A stretch of 6,045 nucleotides of DNA from Vulcanimicrobiota bacterium. GTDB lineage: Bacteria; Eremiobacterota; Eremiobacteria; Baltobacterales; Baltobacteraceae. Positions 1 through 6,045 of the stretch are shown one piece after another. The stretch covers positions 1 through 6,045 of the forward strand of contig JASHZC010000206.1 of NCBI GenBank assembly GCA_030042755.1, read 5' to 3'. The notes beneath the pieces were generated by a model, which was not told the DNA's origin, searched no databases, and was given only the letters and a program-made list of their open reading frames with translations. Position numbers and translations under genes: made by a program. Every line of letters starts with the position of its first letter. Position 1 is the first letter of the stretch.

Positions 1-2325
1 GCCGACGCGCTTGCCCGACGCAAGTAAAGCGACGATCAGCGCCGCCGCGAGCGTGCTTTTCCCGCTACCGGGCGGTCCTTGAATTGCGAGGTGAGAACCA
101 TCGAGATCGTTTACGATTGCTTCGATGTGCGCTGCGTCAAGTTGCTCGGGTTGGATTTGCGCCCGCGCGGTGCGCGTACGCGGTCGCCGTGCTAAGAGCA
201 GCGAAAGCGTCGCCGGATGGGTAGACTCGAGCGTTTCATCGAGATAATCGCGCGCAATGCGCACGAGCGCGTCGCGCTGTTCGCTCGTTTGGATCGGCTT
301 AGCGGGGATGAGCGCGCGCAAGCGGTCCGGAGCGATCGCGGCGCTCAGTTTGATGGTCAACTCGTTGCGATCGTCGTCGAACTGCACGATCGTCCCTGCC
401 ATCTTCTGTGCGTCGGGGCAGTGGGGCGTGGTCGTCCCGAGGTTGTGCAGTTGCTCCGGAAACGAATACGTATAGACGAAGCTGCGCTTGATTTTGTACG
501 GCGCGATGTCGGTACGTAGCTGCAGCCCGCCGAGCGCTTCGTGATCGAACTCGAGCAGCCGGTCCGTGTTCTCGGTCCGATCGTAGTATTTCCAATATGC
601 CGGTTTAGCTTCGCGAGAGTGATAGTCGACGAGATGACCGAGCAGCCAGCGCGCGCGTGTGGACTCGTCTCGCGCGCGCAAATCGCCAAGGGACTCAGGC
701 GCGACAATCCCCTCGAGCAAATGCGTCGCAAGCTCGCTGCGTCCACCGTCCTCGGGGATCTCCTTCAACGCTGTTTGGCGCCACTCGAGCGGCCGTCCAA
801 TCTGCGTCTCGCGCTCGCCGCGAAGCTGCAGCAACCACTCGCGCAGAAGAAAGGTCGATCGGCAGTCGTCCTCGTTGTAACGCTCGATGTCGTGAAGGAT
901 TGACTCGTCGCCGCTTGCTAGCCACGTTTCGAACATGACGATGGAATCGTCGCCGCGTTGCACCGTCGTGTCGCGATGCATGCCGTAGAACGGCTCGAGC
1001 TTCTTGATGGAATAACTAGGCGCCGAAACGCGAAGCGCTTGCCGCACGACGGCGTAGAGATCGACGAAAGCGGAATTGCGCAGAAGGTCGTCGAGCTCTC
1101 GCTCGCGCGTGCCGTAGAATCCCATCAGGTGCCGCATCGCCGTCGTTTCGTACGGGGCATAGTGATAGACGTGCATTGCCGGGTATTGCCGGCGCCGCTC
1201 GGCGATGAAGTCGAGCGCCGACTCGAACGCGGCGCGCTCTTGGGCGCGAGAGCGGGCCCAAAACGAAACGTAGCGTGCTTCATTTGGGCAGAAGAATCCG
1301 AACAGATATTCCAACCCGCGCTCGGGAGCGTAGAGCGGGTCGCCCTCGATGTCGAAGAAGAGATCGCCGGCATCAGGCGGCGGTAGCAATTCAAATCCGC
1401 GACCCTGCTCGCTGTCAAGTAATTCGTAGACATTGCGATGCTCGCGCCGCCCGGTCTCTTGTAACGATGCCTGGGAGCGAAGCGTTGAAAACGTAGCTTC
1501 CTCCATGCCGAACGGCCGGCCCGCGTCGCCGGCGGCCGCGAGACCGCTCATCGTGGTGATACCGGCGTCTTCCAACTTGCCAATCTGATCGCGACGCATG
1601 CGCGCTACGAGGCTTAGATGGTCGTCATCGAACCGCTGCGTGGCGCAGCGTTGGCTCCACCGGCAAATATCGCAATGTGAAACCTCGAACGGGTAGGCAT
1701 CGAACGTAGCCGCGGCCATCGTTTCGAGGAAGCGCGCTCGCAGGTGACGCTCGTACGCGGCGAAGTCGTCGAGGCGAAACGCGCGGTGCGCGCCGCTTCC
1801 CAAGAGCACGTGCATGTTCGCCGGCGCACTGCCCTGAACGCGCGCAACGTGCGCGCTGTAGTGGGCGAGCTGAACGAGATAATAGGGCTTCGGCGTGAGC
1901 GCAAGTTTTGCGTCGATGACTTCGTAGCTCCACGGCCAGCGTTCGCACGGGGAATCGACCCGTCGCAAGAAATCGGTGCGACCGAGAAACGTGCCGTCGA
2001 AGAACGTCGCTTGATAGATGAGCGGCGCTCCCGAGGCCATCGCCAGGACGGCACGTTCCTGCGCGGCTTCGAAGTCCCGCACGGAAGCGCCGCTTTCGGA
2101 TGGAAAAACGACGATGTCGTCGCCATACAGCGCGCGAAAACGCTCGAGTTGTCGCGCTTCGTGCTCGTCGCCCTTGCTCGCAAGCAGCGCGGCAGTGGGA
2201 GTCGGTTCCGGACGAGCGAGCTCGTGCAATGCAGCGAGGCGCTCGAGTTCGACGAGGCGATCGCACTCGAGCGAATTGTTTAGGTCGGTAGCGGAGAAAA
2301 TGAAACGGCCGTCGATTCGCTGCAT
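1..2325 (-). CDS. TM0106 family RecB-like nuclease / DNA2-UPF1-like helicase, 3' part off window
   Basis: Predicted DNA-processing enzyme; 775 uninterrupted codons are visible and the C-terminal helicase continues past position 1. Seen in order: a Cas4/AddB-type PD-(D/E)XK nuclease at residues 10-230, with GRTD (D118), a strand carrying E135 and D138-A-K140, and the RecB motif Q152-L-A-H-Y156. Four cysteines (C21; C218, C221, C227 as CDICRWSQRC) have the 4Fe-4S arrangement of Cas4, AddB and Dna2. A linker at 240-300 may be helix-hairpin-helix. An RNase H-like DEDD exonuclease domain spans about 318-500, with FFDIEGDP (D325, E327) and YNEDDC (D486/D487). Walker A GPPGSGKST (750-758) begins a superfamily 1 helicase. 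This order matches the TM0106 family, usually over 1,000 residues long. ATG 2325 is chosen because GGAAG lies 8 nt upstream and MQRIDGRFIFSATDL fits a family N-terminus; GTG 2343 is the alternative. Family assignment is strong; the cellular role (repair or defence) is inferred. Confidence 0.92.
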   Translation of the reverse strand, partial: MQRIDGRFIFSATDLNNSLECDRLVELERLAALHELARPEPTPTAALLASKGDEHEARQLERFRALYGDDIVVFPSESGASVRDFEAAQERAVLAMASGAPLIYQATFFDGTFLGRTDFLRRVDSPCERWPWSYEVIDAKLALTPKPYYLVQLAHYSAHVARVQGSAPANMHVLLGSGAHRAFRLDDFAAYERHLRARFLETMAAATFDAYPFEVSHCDICRWSQRCATQRFDDDHLSLVARMRRDQIGKLEDAGITTMSGLAAAGDAGRPFGMEEATFSTLRSQASLQETGRREHRNVYELLDSEQGRGFELLPPPDAGDLFFDIEGDPLYAPERGLEYLFGFFCPNEARYVSFWARSRAQERAAFESALDFIAERRRQYPAMHVYHYAPYETTAMRHLMGFYGTRERELDDLLRNSAFVDLYAVVRQALRVSAPSYSIKKLEPFYGMHRDTTVQRGDDSIVMFETWLASGDESILHDIERYNEDDCRSTFLLREWLLQLRGERETQIGRPLEWRQTALKEIPEDGGRSELATHLLEGIVAPESLGDLRARDESTRARWLLGHLVDYHSREAKPAYWKYYDRTENTDRLLEFDHEALGGLQLRTDIAPYKIKRSFVYTYSFPEQLHNLGTTTPHCPDAQKMAGTIVQFDDDRNELTIKLSAAIAPDRLRALIPAKPIQTSEQRDALVRIARDYLDETLESTHPATLSLLLARRPRTRTARAQIQPEQLDAAHIEAIVNDLDGSHLAIQGPPGSGKSTLAAALIVALLASGKRVG

Positions 2326-2387
2326 ACGCGGATCTTCCGACACGATCGTGCCATGCGCCTGGCATAATACCCATTTAGGATCGTCGA
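2326..2387. promoter_or_regulatory. Divergent intergenic region with possible back-to-back -10 elements
   Basis: This 62-bp gap separates the divergent starts at 2325 (minus) and 2388 (plus), so it should hold promoters for both. The most AT-rich part, 2361-2376, contains CATAAT on the plus strand (2363-2368), one mismatch from TATAAT. The overlapping minus-strand hexamer TATTAT (2369-2364) is also one mismatch away. Neither has a convincing -35 at 16-18 bp. The -10 calls rest on similarity alone. Confidence 0.3.
2334..2338 (-). promoter_or_regulatory. Ribosome binding site of the TM0106-family gene
   Basis: On the minus strand GGAAG stands 8 nt before ATG 2325. It supports this start over the in-frame GTG at 2343, which lacks a comparable site. 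Confidence 0.5.
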
Positions 2388-2921
2388 GTGATGGATCCGT
2401 TGATCGTTGCTCGCCGCCTCCCCCGCATTGCCGAGCGCGCCATGCGCGCTGCGATCAGGCGGGGTCTTGAGAACCGACGGTTAACGACGCGCGCGATCGT
2501 CGGCGACGCGCTCGTTCGTTTCGACGCACTCGCTTCGCGCGAGGCCGGTGCGGGCGTGCGTTCGGCGTTACTATTCGCGGAACGCAATCGGATCGCACGC
2601 GAGCTTCGCGCGTTCGTTGAAGGACGCTTGGCAGTACGGCTCGGCGCGCTGCCGCGGCGCGACATTCTCGCGGTCGGCAAGGAAGCGTCGCCGTTCGATG
2701 CGATCGTTCGGAATCGGCGCGGGCGTCGCTACGGCATCGTTTTGCGCCGGTTGCCGCGCGACGGAACGCGACTCGAGCTGCTCGGGCGGATGCGCGGCGC
2801 GGCAAAAACAGCGAGAACGCCGGTTGACGGCGTTCTCGTCTACGATTTCGCTGATGCTTCGGTTCGGCTGTTAAACCAGGCCGGCGCGGAGCGCGTGTAC
2901 GGCGACTTGCGTGCGAGCTGA
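2388..2921 (+). CDS. Hypothetical basic protein, possible degenerate PD-(D/E)XK-like fold
   Basis: I do not recognise this 177-residue protein. It is arginine-rich with no signal peptide or membrane segment, so probably cytoplasmic and nucleic-acid facing. The N-terminal half (10-85) is helical; the second half looks like alternating strands: FDAIVRN (103-109), RRYGIVLRRL (113-122), TRLELLGRMRG (127-137) and VDGVLVYDF (146-154), then SVRLL (158-162). The strand-turn-strand with D104 and GIVLRR resembles the core of restriction-endonuclease-like proteins, but the expected E-x-K is replaced by L-R-R, so activity is doubtful. That comparison is inference. GTG 2388 and ATG 2391 are adjacent starts; AGGA at 2377-2380 lies 7 or 10 nt upstream and fits either. 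It is divergent from the nuclease-helicase gene and overlaps the LuxR-type gene tail to tail by 51 bp. That it is coding is supported by a full-length frame, an SD-like site and a protein with fold-like strand patterning. Confidence 0.75.
   Translation: MMDPLIVARRLPRIAERAMRAAIRRGLENRRLTTRAIVGDALVRFDALASREAGAGVRSALLFAERNRIARELRAFVEGRLAVRLGALPRRDILAVGKEASPFDAIVRNRRGRRYGIVLRRLPRDGTRLELLGRMRGAAKTARTPVDGVLVYDFADASVRLLNQAGAERVYGDLRAS
2804..2838 (-). terminator. Intrinsic terminator for the LuxR-type gene, inside the opposing ORF
   Basis: A perfect 10-bp inverted repeat, CGAGAACGCC (2812-2821) and GGCGTTCTCG (2829-2838), encloses a 7-nt loop. Read on the minus strand, the stem is followed by CTG and five T residues (2808-2804), the form of a rho-independent terminator. 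It begins 33 nt beyond the LuxR-type stop codon at 2871. It lies within codons of the plus-strand hypothetical gene (around residues 139-151), so the same bases also encode protein. On the plus strand no T-run follows, so the signal is directional. Confidence 0.6.
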
Positions 2922-3359
2922 CAGGTTCAGTTTTGCAAGGATGTGCGAGATGTGGTTCTTCACCGTCTTGTCGGAGAGCTTGAGCCGAATGCTGATCTGC
3001 TTGTTCGAGAGTCCTTCGGCGACGAGGCGCACGACCTCGAACTCGCGCTCGGAAAGCGCCGTGCGAATATCGCGAGTCGCCGGAACGGCCTGCAAATGCC
3101 GCAAGGGTATCGCTGCGGGCGGCAAGTTCTTGATCATGTCGATGAAGTCACCGATGGGGACGCTTCGCAGATCGTGCAAAAGGGTGTCGTCCACGACGAC
3201 GTCGGCGTCGACAGTAGCCTGCTCGAGGCTTGGGGCTGTTCCGACCACGCGAACGCCGCTCTCGAGTGAAAGCAAACGTGCTATGGCGCTTCGAACCGTG
3301 GCATCAGGACCGGTCACGAGGATACTCGTGGGGACGTCCTGGTGTGGTAGGACGGTCAT
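2871..3359 (-). CDS. LuxR-family (NarL-type) regulator with shortened, degenerate receiver
   Basis: A 162-residue DNA-binding regulator. The C-terminal LuxR/GerE helix-turn-helix (102-159) is complete: LSEREFEVVRLVAEGLSNK, then the recognition part SDKTVKNHISHILAKL and a final helix. The N-terminal 100 residues retain the start of a receiver (SILVTGPDATVRSAIARLL, GVRVVGTAPSLEQA, DADVVVDD), but the acidic pair after the first strand is replaced by T-G-P-D. D57/D58 sit where the phospho-acceptor would be. The rest is far shorter than usual: family response regulators are about 200-220 residues, and the conserved T/S and K of strands 4 and 5 are not evident. I infer that it works without phosphorylation. 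ATG 3359 is supported by GGAAAGG 5 nt upstream. It is divergent from the MalT-like/BTAD gene across 104 bp, and there is no adjacent histidine kinase. Confidence 0.88.
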   Translation of the reverse strand: MTVLPHQDVPTSILVTGPDATVRSAIARLLSLESGVRVVGTAPSLEQATVDADVVVDDTLLHDLRSVPIGDFIDMIKNLPPAAIPLRHLQAVPATRDIRTALSEREFEVVRLVAEGLSNKQISIRLKLSDKTVKNHISHILAKLNLSARTQVAVHALRAGLV

Positions 3360-3364
3360 GGTTG

Positions 3365-3371
3365 CCTTTCC
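3365..3371 (-). promoter_or_regulatory. Ribosome binding site of the LuxR-type gene
   Basis: GGAAAGG on the minus strand, 5 nt before ATG 3359, is a good Shine-Dalgarno match and fixes this start. Confidence 0.6.
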
Positions 3372-3392
3372 GTTGGCTCGGCTGGCGCTACG

Positions 3393-3398
3393 AATGTA
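3393..3398 (-). promoter_or_regulatory. Candidate -10 element for the LuxR-type gene
   Basis: TACATT on the minus strand matches four of six positions of TATAAT and would give a leader of roughly 25-30 nt. The hexamer 17 bp upstream (AGGCCC on the minus strand) is not a -35, as in activator-dependent promoters. The first unit of the 11-bp repeat array begins 11 bp further upstream. This is a weak call from position and similarity. Confidence 0.2.
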
Positions 3399-3409
3399 GC
3401 AGGGGGTGC

Positions 3410-3464
3410 TTTCATGGGCCTTACGAACTAATTACATCCTGCTTACAAACCGATTACACGGCCA
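3410..3464 (+). repeat. Five tandem 11-bp direct repeats, TTACA-type; putative winged-helix operator
   Basis: TTAC occurs at 3421, 3432, 3443 and 3454, exactly 11 bp apart, and a degenerate unit TTTCA sits in the same register at 3410. The units are TTTCATGGGCC, TTACGAACTAA, TTACATCCTGC, TTACAAACCGA and TTACACGGCCA. Columns 1, 2 and 4 (T, T, C) are invariant, and columns 3 and 5 are A in four of five. The last unit ends on the A of ATG 3464. One helical-turn spacing of direct repeats is characteristic of sites bound side by side by OmpR/PhoB and SARP-type winged helices, and the protein encoded immediately downstream carries such a domain. The repeat is directly visible; its role as operator is inferred. 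Confidence 0.6.
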
Positions 3465-6045
3465 TGGCTGAACTCGTTCGGCGAGAAGCGTTGCTCGAAC
3501 GTCTGCGGCATCTCGATCCGCGGATCGTAGCGGTTATTGCGCCTGCGGGCTTCGGTAAGTCGACGCTCGTCAGGGAGTACCTCGCACAGCGTGGAGGGGG
3601 CGTCGTCTGCGACTGTGCCGGCGTGCGCGACGAGCTCGATTTTGCCAGGCGCCTCATCCCATCGCTGGCCGAGGAGACGCCCGCGCGTGAGGGCGATCTG
3701 ACCCGCCGCGAGCTGATGCTAGGTGACGGTACGGCCAGCGTGGCCGATCGCATCGCCATCGCGCTGGAAGCATGGCGAGAGCCCGCCCAAGGTTGCCTCG
3801 TGTTCGAAAGCGCCGAAGCGCTAGCGAATGCCGAGTCGGCGCGCGATCTGTTCGCGCGAATGCTGGAATCGCGTCCACCCGGCCGCACCGTCGTCATCTG
3901 TTCGCGCGACTCTTTGCGACTGCACTTCACGCGTTACGCCGTTCCACACGAGATCGTCACGCTACGCGCACCGGATCTTGCCTTCGAGCTTGCCGACATC
4001 CGCAAGATCTTCGCTCCATTCGTTACGAGCGATAGTGACGCCGAACACATCTTCAAGGTTTCGGCGGGCTGGCCGATCGCCGTCTTCCTGCTCAGACGCT
4101 TCGCGAGCGAAGGCCGCATCTCGACGCTCCTCGATCGACTGGACGACGTCGCGTTCGACGAGCTGCACGACTATCTCGCCGAAGAAGTGCTCGGTGGGCT
4201 CGATCAACGCATGCGCAATGCCCTCTTTGCGTGCGCCGCGATACCGCGCGCAACCGCCGCCGATCTTTGCGCCGCCTTCGAAGACGATGCCACCTTAGCC
4301 GACGACTTGGCCGAAGTCGCCAAGGAAATGGCCTTCGTCGTTCTCGGAGAGGACGGCACGTTTTCGCTCCATCCGTTGCTCGCCTCGCTCCTGCTCGATC
4401 GAGGAGCGCAAAAGCGCGATGCGCTCCTCCGTAACGTGGCGGCTTTTCACGAGAGCCACTTCAACCATCAACGTGCCGCCGAAATTCACATCGCTCGTGG
4501 CGATCAGCAAGCGGCAGCGCAAGCGCTCGGCGCCCACGAGGTCATGCGCGACACGGCTCCCTCGATGGAATACGCGCACGTGTTATCGAGCCTCGACCGC
4601 AGCCTCGTCGCACGCTATCCGCGTTTGTGGGGCGTTACCGCATTGATGCGAATGTTCTGCTCCGATACTGCGATCATGCTCGACGAAGCCGAGACGATCT
4701 GGCGTACGCTTCGGCCGGACGCGTCCTCAATGGAACGCTACTACGTGTTCGTCTTTCGCATGCTGTTGATGAGTTATCTCGGCATGTTCGATGAGGCGCT
4801 CGAGGCAATCCGCGAATTCGGAGCGCAAATCGGATTTTCCGATCCGCCGCGGACGTTTCTCGACGGTCACATCTTGTATCTTCGCGGACTGCTGCGCGCG
4901 AGACGCGGGAATTTCGACCTCGGCGAACGCGATCTCAACGCAGCGCTGCCGCTCATCGACCGCATGGATGTCGTGGCGTCGGGAACGTATTTGGCGCTCG
5001 GAGCCGACATTGCCCGCGTTCGCGGAGAGTGGTCGGTGGAACGTCAATTCTTGGCGCGAGCTCACGAACGCGCGATGTCCTCGGCGTTGCCGAACTTTCT
5101 TGCGTTCGACGCGGCCGAAGCACTCATCGGCGCGTGGTTTGCGGGAGATCAGGCCACGTTTAGCTCGAGCGCCGTCGAGCTCGAGAATACGGTGGCGCGC
5201 CACAACGTTCACGGATTTGCCTATTTAGCGGCGGCGGCTCGCGGCCACGCCGCAACGCCCGGTCCGGCGGATCTACCCAAGTCGACCGTTTTCGGACAGC
5301 TGATCGCGCTTTCGCGTTCGCGCGATGAGGACGAGCGGGTGAGGATGGCACGCGACGCGCTGGCGCGAGCCAAGCAAGTGCGGATCCCGTTCGTCGAGGC
5401 ACTGGCAGCCGTCGCGCTTGCATTGTGCGATCCAGCCTCGTTCGATGAAGCAATGGCGGTTGCGCACGACGCCGCGGCTCGCTGCGACGCACCGGCGCTC
5501 GTGCATGCAGTCGATGCGGTCGCGAACCAGCACGACAACGTCGGTATGCTTGCGAACTTCGTAGCGCAGATCACGCGGGATCGTAGCGAAGCGGCGCCGA
5601 TTGCGCTCGAAGTCCTCGCCGGACACGTTCGCGTTGACGGCGATCTCGTTGCGCTTTCGGGACGCGAACTCGAGTTGCTGGCAGCGCTTGCGCAGCGACG
5701 TGATGTGACGCCGCGCACGCGTCTTGCAGCCATGCTGTGGCCGGATCAGGACGAAGACGCCGCTCGCAACGCCCTGAGCGTGTGTCTGCACCGGCTGCGC
5801 TTGCATCTGGGCCGCAAGGATGCAATCGAGCGCGTTGCCGACGGATATCGCTTGCACGTCGATGCGTTCGTCGACGTGTGGGAGATCGAACGCGCGGCCG
5901 CGACGCTTCGTTCGCGCGAGCGCTTGCGCGAAGGTTCTCGGGCTGCGCTCCACCGCGCGTGGGAAAGACTGCGCGAGGAGCGCGCCGCATCCATCGAGCG
6001 GTGGGAGTGGTTCGAACCAACCGCACGACGTATGGGCGACTTGCG
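3464..6045 (+). CDS. MalT-like STAND ATPase with C-terminal winged helix and BTAD, 3' end off window
   Basis: Large ATP-dependent transcriptional regulator; 860 codons are open to the window end. The N-terminus has the MalT/LAL pattern: VRREALLERL (5-14), then Walker A APAGFGKST (26-34), a Walker B-like strand GCLVFESAE (110-118), and the GWP signature (202-204) typical of MalT-type ATPases. Residues about 420-620 are paired amphipathic helices (such as MLLMSYLGMFDEALEAI and LRARRGNFDLGERDLNAAL), a TPR-like sensor region. From V717 an OmpR-type winged helix follows (VRVDGDLVALSGRELELL, then AAMLWPD, NALSVCLHRLRLHLG and VADGYRLHVDA). From about 803 (VDVWEIERAAATL) it enters a bacterial transcriptional activator domain cut by the window edge. 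AfsR-type SARPs carry winged helix-BTAD at the N-terminus, before the ATPase; here it is C-terminal, where MalT would have a LuxR-type HTH. ATG 3464 is the first plausible in-frame start, but no Shine-Dalgarno precedes it. Repeats at 3410-3464 suggest autoregulation. Ligand and targets cannot be told. Confidence 0.9.
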   Translation, partial: MAELVRREALLERLRHLDPRIVAVIAPAGFGKSTLVREYLAQRGGGVVCDCAGVRDELDFARRLIPSLAEETPAREGDLTRRELMLGDGTASVADRIAIALEAWREPAQGCLVFESAEALANAESARDLFARMLESRPPGRTVVICSRDSLRLHFTRYAVPHEIVTLRAPDLAFELADIRKIFAPFVTSDSDAEHIFKVSAGWPIAVFLLRRFASEGRISTLLDRLDDVAFDELHDYLAEEVLGGLDQRMRNALFACAAIPRATAADLCAAFEDDATLADDLAEVAKEMAFVVLGEDGTFSLHPLLASLLLDRGAQKRDALLRNVAAFHESHFNHQRAAEIHIARGDQQAAAQALGAHEVMRDTAPSMEYAHVLSSLDRSLVARYPRLWGVTALMRMFCSDTAIMLDEAETIWRTLRPDASSMERYYVFVFRMLLMSYLGMFDEALEAIREFGAQIGFSDPPRTFLDGHILYLRGLLRARRGNFDLGERDLNAALPLIDRMDVVASGTYLALGADIARVRGEWSVERQFLARAHERAMSSALPNFLAFDAAEALIGAWFAGDQATFSSSAVELENTVARHNVHGFAYLAAAARGHAATPGPADLPKSTVFGQLIALSRSRDEDERVRMARDALARAKQVRIPFVEALAAVALALCDPASFDEAMAVAHDAAARCDAPALVHAVDAVANQHDNVGMLANFVAQITRDRSEAAPIALEVLAGHVRVDGDLVALSGRELELLAALAQRRDVTPRTRLAAMLWPDQDEDAARNALSVCLHRLRLHLGRKDAIERVADGYRLHVDAFVDVWEIERAAATLRSRERLREGSRAALHRAWERLREERAASIERWEWFEPTARRMGDL

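Follow-up and report, generated by a model that had tools for sequence, protein, structure and literature searches.

The window, by which we mean the whole 6,045-nucleotide stretch of DNA analysed here, carries two divergent regulator genes separated by a 104-bp intergenic region (3360-3463) with a GC content of 54%, compared with 63% for the window (Table 1). The minus strand encodes a LuxR-type regulator, and the plus strand encodes a MalT-like STAND ATPase (the BTAD protein), whose ATG at 3464 was chosen by homology, the reading frame being open further upstream. The window also encodes an RNase_H_2-domain protein (1-2343, minus strand) and a 177-aa protein without a Pfam match (2388-2921, plus strand), relatives of which are likewise found downstream of the LuxR gene in genome G065 (locus L183). 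An Rfam scan of the window and six loci returned nothing at the gathering score.

Table 1. Features of the locus; positions refer to the window unless a compared locus is named.
Feature	Position	Strand	Evidence and conservation
LuxR-type (GerE) regulator, 162 aa, proposed target gene	2871..3359	-	PF00196, 2.6e-19
LuxR gene 5' leader, GCCAGCCGAGCCAACGGAAAGGCAACC, also given as GCCAGCCGAGCC(A)ACGGAAAGGCAACC	3360..3386	-	near-identical in group A and L094/L096
-10-like element TACATT (TANNNT) of the LuxR-type gene	3393..3398	-	TANNNT at exactly this distance in 21/21 LuxR-paired loci
Spacer, 11 nt, length fixed and sequence unconserved	3399..3409	-	mean column identity 0.34 over 19 loci
Unit 5, TGAAA, degenerate, promoter-proximal	3410..3414	-	NGAAA or NGACA in phase in 19/21; full CGTAA or TGTAA in L097 and L107
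Unit 4, CGTAA, in the place of the -35 box	3421..3425	-	CGTAA at the same distance from TANNNT in 20/21 LuxR-paired loci; TGTAA in L097
Unit 3, TGTAA	3432..3436	-	invariant in 8/8 group A loci; degenerate or lost in 11 group B loci
Unit 2, TGTAA	3443..3447	-	invariant in 19/19 aligned loci of A2; absent from L097 and L107, where units 4 and 5 are the only ones
Unit 1, TGTAA, distal	3454..3458	-	unchanged in 8/8 group A loci, spacing 11; GTAA in 19/19 aligned loci
MalT-like STAND ATPase with C-terminal winged helix and BTAD, proposed activator	3464..6045	+	PF00486, 1.1e-7; runs off the window
AAAGTAA-N8-TAATGT sites in LuxR-less BTAD loci	L083 1309, L084 1337, L086 1345, L102 1349, L104 1331, L106 1343, L108 1337, L109 1336, L111 1351, L114 1408		BTAD gene on +

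Within the intergenic region, TTAC recurs on the plus strand at 3421, 3432, 3443, and 3454, a spacing of exactly 11 bp, and a degenerate fifth unit, TTTC(A), is in phase with these four at 3410. In minus-strand orientation, the array reads TGTAA-N6-TGTAA-N6-TGTAA-N6-CGTAA-N6-TGAAA, and the next elements are a spacer of exactly 11 nt, TACATT, and the LuxR-type gene. When the 104-bp region was put through dinucleotide shuffles, a run of at least three TTAC/GTAA at 11 bp arose in 0 out of 20,000 cases; with every 4-mer and all periods of 5 to 25 allowed, a run of at least three appeared in 418 and a run of four, as observed, in 2 out of 20,000. The coordinates and the shuffles confirm the original prediction of four perfect TTAC units and one degenerate unit in strict 11-bp register, which had also placed the array beside the start of the winged-helix/BTAD gene, and indeed the last TTACA ends 5 nt before the ATG.

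Relatives of the BTAD protein at E ≤ 1e-100 are present in 38 of the 149 genomes of the phylum; scanning the genome contigs with the single BTAD protein found none, and an alignment was therefore used as the query instead. A total of 44 loci, including four paralogues near 27%, were compared, 20 with a divergent LuxR gene next door and 24 without. Locus L095, which begins inside the gene and whose genome is represented by L148, was dropped from the latter, so that the final sets consisted of 21 paired loci (the window and 20 others) and 23 unpaired BTAD loci, with only about 216 upstream bases in L154. On the minus strand, a phased pentamer pair lies exactly 11 nt before TANNNT in all 21 loci with the divergent BTAD/LuxR pair, whereas only one of the 23 BTAD loci without a LuxR gene passes the loose form of the same test and none passes the strict form. 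Shuffles of the 21 paired regions passed in 356 (loose) or 59 (strict) out of 10,500 cases. These are fair tests, as neither uses the selection pattern of the alignment A2 described below. A chance repeat without function is contradicted by the shuffle tests and by the conservation, no point was found in its favor, and we regard it as extremely improbable.

In a tree of 41 BTAD proteins, a single branch (support 100/99) separates 18 paired proteins from the rest, while L103, L148, and L149, also paired, were too short to be included. The pairing was therefore gained or lost a single time. It changed on one branch along with the array and the BTAD type, such that the 21-to-1 contrast is a single event, and the array represents one origin kept over deep divergence rather than 21 events. 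Because the paired loci form one clade, the weight of the evidence rests on conservation inside this clade.

Aligning the orthologous intergenic regions, as suggested with the original prediction, revealed conservation of both the TTAC columns and their spacing, in two layouts. Group A (the window, L148, L092, L085, L110, L112, L113, and L149) has four perfect units and a degenerate fifth at steps of 11, 11, 11, and 11, and L085, with proteins of 42-44% identity, still shows this layout. In group B (11 loci), unit 3 has decayed, units 1, 2, 4, and 5 persist, and one step is 10 bp; the distance between units 2 and 4 is thus 21 bp compared with 22 bp elsewhere, which is still two helical turns. 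The groups are layouts and not clades, as L094 and L096 of group B branch beside group A. At L097 and L107, the array consists of just two units, each of which is close to TGTAA and stands in the same register to TANNNT, and this shared register suggests that the fifth unit of the other loci is likely a true site. The two-unit locus L107 is the first branch of the paired clade, which hints that the operator grew unit by unit. In the alignment A2 of 19 loci, units 2 and 4 and TA...T do not vary and the spacer sequence is close to random (0.34), although the 19 rows were chosen by the pattern CGTAA-N22-TANNNT, so that the fixedness of the CGTAA and TA...T columns is by construction. In group A, the spacer identity is 0.74 between units 1 and 2 and 0.73 between units 3 and 4, but 0.28 between units 2 and 3, a pattern that would suit protomers paired as 1-2 and 3-4.

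The array occupies a constant position relative to the promoter of the LuxR-type gene. According to PMC10936776, a SARP operator is built of direct repeats spaced 11 or 22 bp apart, the last of which stands 8 bp from the -10, and AfsR recognizes an afs box made of two 11-bp repeats that cover a poor -35 and have their centre at -29.5. Phased direct repeats and a poor -35 also mark the paired loci, and in 21 out of 21 of them the last pentamer stands 11 nt from TANNNT, a distance equal to 8 or 9 nt on the assumption that the contacted stretch starts with the pentamer and is 8 or 7 bp long. With the -10 taken as -12 to -7, unit 4 is located at -39 to -35 and unit 5 at -28 to -24. There is no good -35; the best match to TTGACA at a spacing of 16-18 is 2 or 3 out of 6 in 20 of the 21 loci and 4 in L097. 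The fixed register in all 21 paired loci supports the earlier idea that the array could activate a LuxR promoter that lacks a good -35. The transcription start of the LuxR gene would lie near 3386 on the minus strand. The leader pattern occurs once per genome in 8 out of 147 genomes, always at this locus, and folds only weakly better than shuffles (four copies, z of -0.5 to -1.7), as a weak hairpin only.

The full site appears to be specific to this locus. Under stricter filters, a profile of the site (R1) finds one strong site in each of 18 out of 149 genomes, always at this locus and only in the training set; the next best match is on contig C30 of G125 at 4e-4 and the remainder are at 0.02 or worse. 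The region could alternatively be read as a promoter of an alternative sigma factor, composed of CGTAAGNCCC and TANNNT, without an activator site. The stretch CGTAAGnCC is indeed well conserved, but three more copies of the pentamer lie upstream in 11-bp phase in group A, L097 and L107 keep the pentamer pair without the longer CGTAAGnCC stretch, and R1 found no second full site in its 18 source genomes, all of which make a sigma factor promoter very unlikely. A genome-wide regulon of full sites was rejected on the same lack of a second strong site; a wider regulon of short two-unit sites is possible, and R1 missed the two-unit sites of G062 and G092. The original prediction had also proposed a genome scan for phased units. 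Among 147 genomes, four-unit arrays number 12 (two of them copies in G017), of which 7 are at this locus (G005, G040, G041, G095, G103, G104, and G105), while the three-unit pattern occurs elsewhere too, with 62 matches in 33 genomes compared with 14 for the backward control. Neither a BTAD nor a LuxR gene was found beside the arrays of G012, G017, and G003. The match in G125 (L155, about 1550-1587) is another four-unit TTAC array in 11-bp phase, located before a TonB-dependent receptor gene.

The BTAD protein resembles SARP-type regulators in its C-terminal part. The winged helix (PF00486) is inside the window, and the BTAD domain lies past the 3' end of the window and is known only from homologues, as PF03704 is present in homologues including one of 96% identity. 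A profile of the protein family matches MalT (1e-20), AfsR (2.8e-6), and EmbR (4.7e-6), and comparison of the profiles aligns the N-terminal part with MalT and the C-terminal part, across winged helix and BTAD, with AfsR and EmbR. The SARP-type order of an OmpR-type winged helix followed by BTAD is thus present, although it is C-terminal in the whole protein, unlike in AfsR. Residues W74, R92, and R94 of AfsR touch the afs box (PMC10936776) and align without gaps, when matched by hand, with W759, R777, and R779, which are invariant in 36 sequences. In the recognition helix, 18 paired proteins have NALSV or a close variant, and the 11 close unpaired ones have NAFHV; this difference follows one family split and would bear only slightly on which protein binds. 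Further profile hits include SaeR, PrrA, and others. PhoB/OmpR-type response regulators share the winged-helix fold and recognize tandem direct repeats as sites, but no receiver domain was found in the BTAD protein, and in its homologues BTAD follows the winged helix. The organism-named relatives belong mostly to Baltobacteraceae, Vulcanimicrobiaceae, or Eremiobacterota, with one record named Alphaproteobacteria, which would place the window in Ca. Eremiobacterota (Vulcanimicrobiota), and no relative was found on viral contigs.

The array could instead be bound by the LuxR-type protein, which would then autoregulate its own promoter, as a LuxR gene is present at all 21 array loci and the LuxR promoter is the one in register. 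However, genome G065 retains the LuxR gene and relatives of both downstream neighbors in order (46 and 51% identity), while a Sortilin/BNR-type gene occupies the BTAD place and the only BTAD relative, at 28%, is elsewhere in the genome. The region upstream of this LuxR gene passes neither the loose nor the strict test for the array and has, as read by eye, TTGCCG-17-TATAAC instead. Although a single case, the missing array of this genome would link the array more to the BTAD gene than to the LuxR gene. Moreover, domains of the NarL/FixJ type usually bind inverted repeats, whereas the array is a direct repeat with the SARP/OmpR period, and binding by the LuxR-type protein is quite unlikely.

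The original prediction suggested negative autoregulation of the plus-strand gene. An array acting mainly to repress the BTAD gene, with the LuxR promoter being secondary, would be consistent with the eight group A loci, where 5 or 8 nt separate the array from the start codon, which a bound protein would cover. In four of these loci (L085, L112, L113, and L149), a TANNNT that overlaps unit 1 also lies 3 or 6 nt ahead of the start codon, like a possible leaderless promoter, but the window has no TANNNT overlapping unit 1 before the BTAD start codon. The fixed register of the array is to the minus-strand -10. Between this -10 and the BTAD start aligned by homology lie 66 to 135 bp, depending on which of the 21 loci is considered, and the distance from unit 4 to the BTAD start is 59 to 108 bp in group B compared with 39 to 48 bp in group A. 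A plus-strand promoter in register with the array was also considered and rejected, as any one plus-strand TANNNT is common to at most 5 of the 19 loci (to 4 of the 8 group A loci). Given the variable distance and the lack of a widely common plus-strand TANNNT, conservation does not extend to repression of the BTAD gene, and as the main role of the array such repression is unlikely; it may still occur where the array abuts the start codon, as in the window. Activation of the LuxR gene and repression of the BTAD gene could coexist, and bound protein could shut off the BTAD gene itself in the four loci above and perhaps in the window.

The array is probably the operator of the adjacent MalT-like/BTAD protein and, together with TACATT, forms an activator-dependent promoter of the divergent LuxR-type gene, as judged from sequence comparison. 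The LuxR gene is the most likely target and activation the most likely effect. Two C-terminal winged helices would sit side by side on units 4 and 5, taking the place of sigma region 4 on the -35 and recruiting RNA polymerase, while the three upstream units would add cooperative protomers. The conserved columns and spacing support the earlier notion of an operator for a winged helix of the SARP/OmpR type, to which the BTAD protein is the predicted binder. By controlling transcription of the LuxR regulator, the BTAD protein may form a two-step relay like that of PimR and pimM. It is also conceivable, though doubtful, that the MalT-like ATPase oligomerizes in response to ligand and ATP and so places as many as five winged helices on a dedicated five-unit operator, forming an all-or-none switch for the single LuxR-type gene. 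If this were true, it would represent a SARP relay with reversed domain order and an operator longer than two or three repeats, the number in the operators of PimR, SanG, PolR, and AfsR according to the available portions of the sources (PMC3367932, PMC5930380, PMC10936776).

The closest known arrangements are found in Streptomyces. PimR of Streptomyces natalensis is a SARP joined to an ATPase half and binds three 11-bp repeats in the region that separates pimR from the divergently transcribed pimM, a LuxR-type gene (PMC3367932, PMC5930380). It activates pimM, and no other gene of the cluster is its target. The present locus shares the divergent pair, the winged helix with an ATPase half, the 11-bp intergenic repeats, and, as proposed here, the LuxR-type target, and both the gene layout and the promoter register fit the PimR/pimM relay, with activation putative. 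On the other hand, PimR has the SARP part at the N-terminus and the LAL half at the C-terminus, whereas the SARP part is C-terminal here; the PimR repeats described are CGGCAAG, three in the main operator and upstream of the -35, instead of up to five TGTAA units in the -35 place; and no PAS domain hit was obtained for the LuxR-type protein here. The locus is likewise similar to AfsR and the afs box of Streptomyces coelicolor in having homologous DNA-binding and BTA domains and 11-bp repeats over a poor -35 at nearly the same position relative to the -10, but the afs box has two repeats compared with up to five here, and the SARP part is N-terminal in AfsR. The AfsR target afsS is not known to be a LuxR gene. 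The system thus appears to combine the layout of PimR with the position of AfsR, up to five units, and a C-terminal SARP part. This kind of wiring is already known from antibiotic-producing Streptomyces, and the array would be a further instance with predicted binding.

A literature search found no paper that brings together Eremiobacterota, transcriptional regulator and promoter, and a prior description is unlikely. For a regulator pair of Ca. Eremiobacterota, a soil phylum with almost no cultured members, the locus provides a specific and conserved putative operator with its promoter. If the proposed arrangement is true, the SARP way of replacing the -35 reaches a distant phylum, and the arrangement predicts which protein binds where.

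The BTAD loci without a LuxR gene have elements of their own. The sequence AAAGTAA-N8-TAATGT is found in 10 of these 23 loci (Table 1). In nine of the ten it precedes the aligned BTAD start by 121-132 bp and in L114 by 61 bp, and several of the loci also have GACGAAAGTC and CTTACGR right before the start codon. These elements are possibly the promoter and leader of the LuxR-less BTAD loci.
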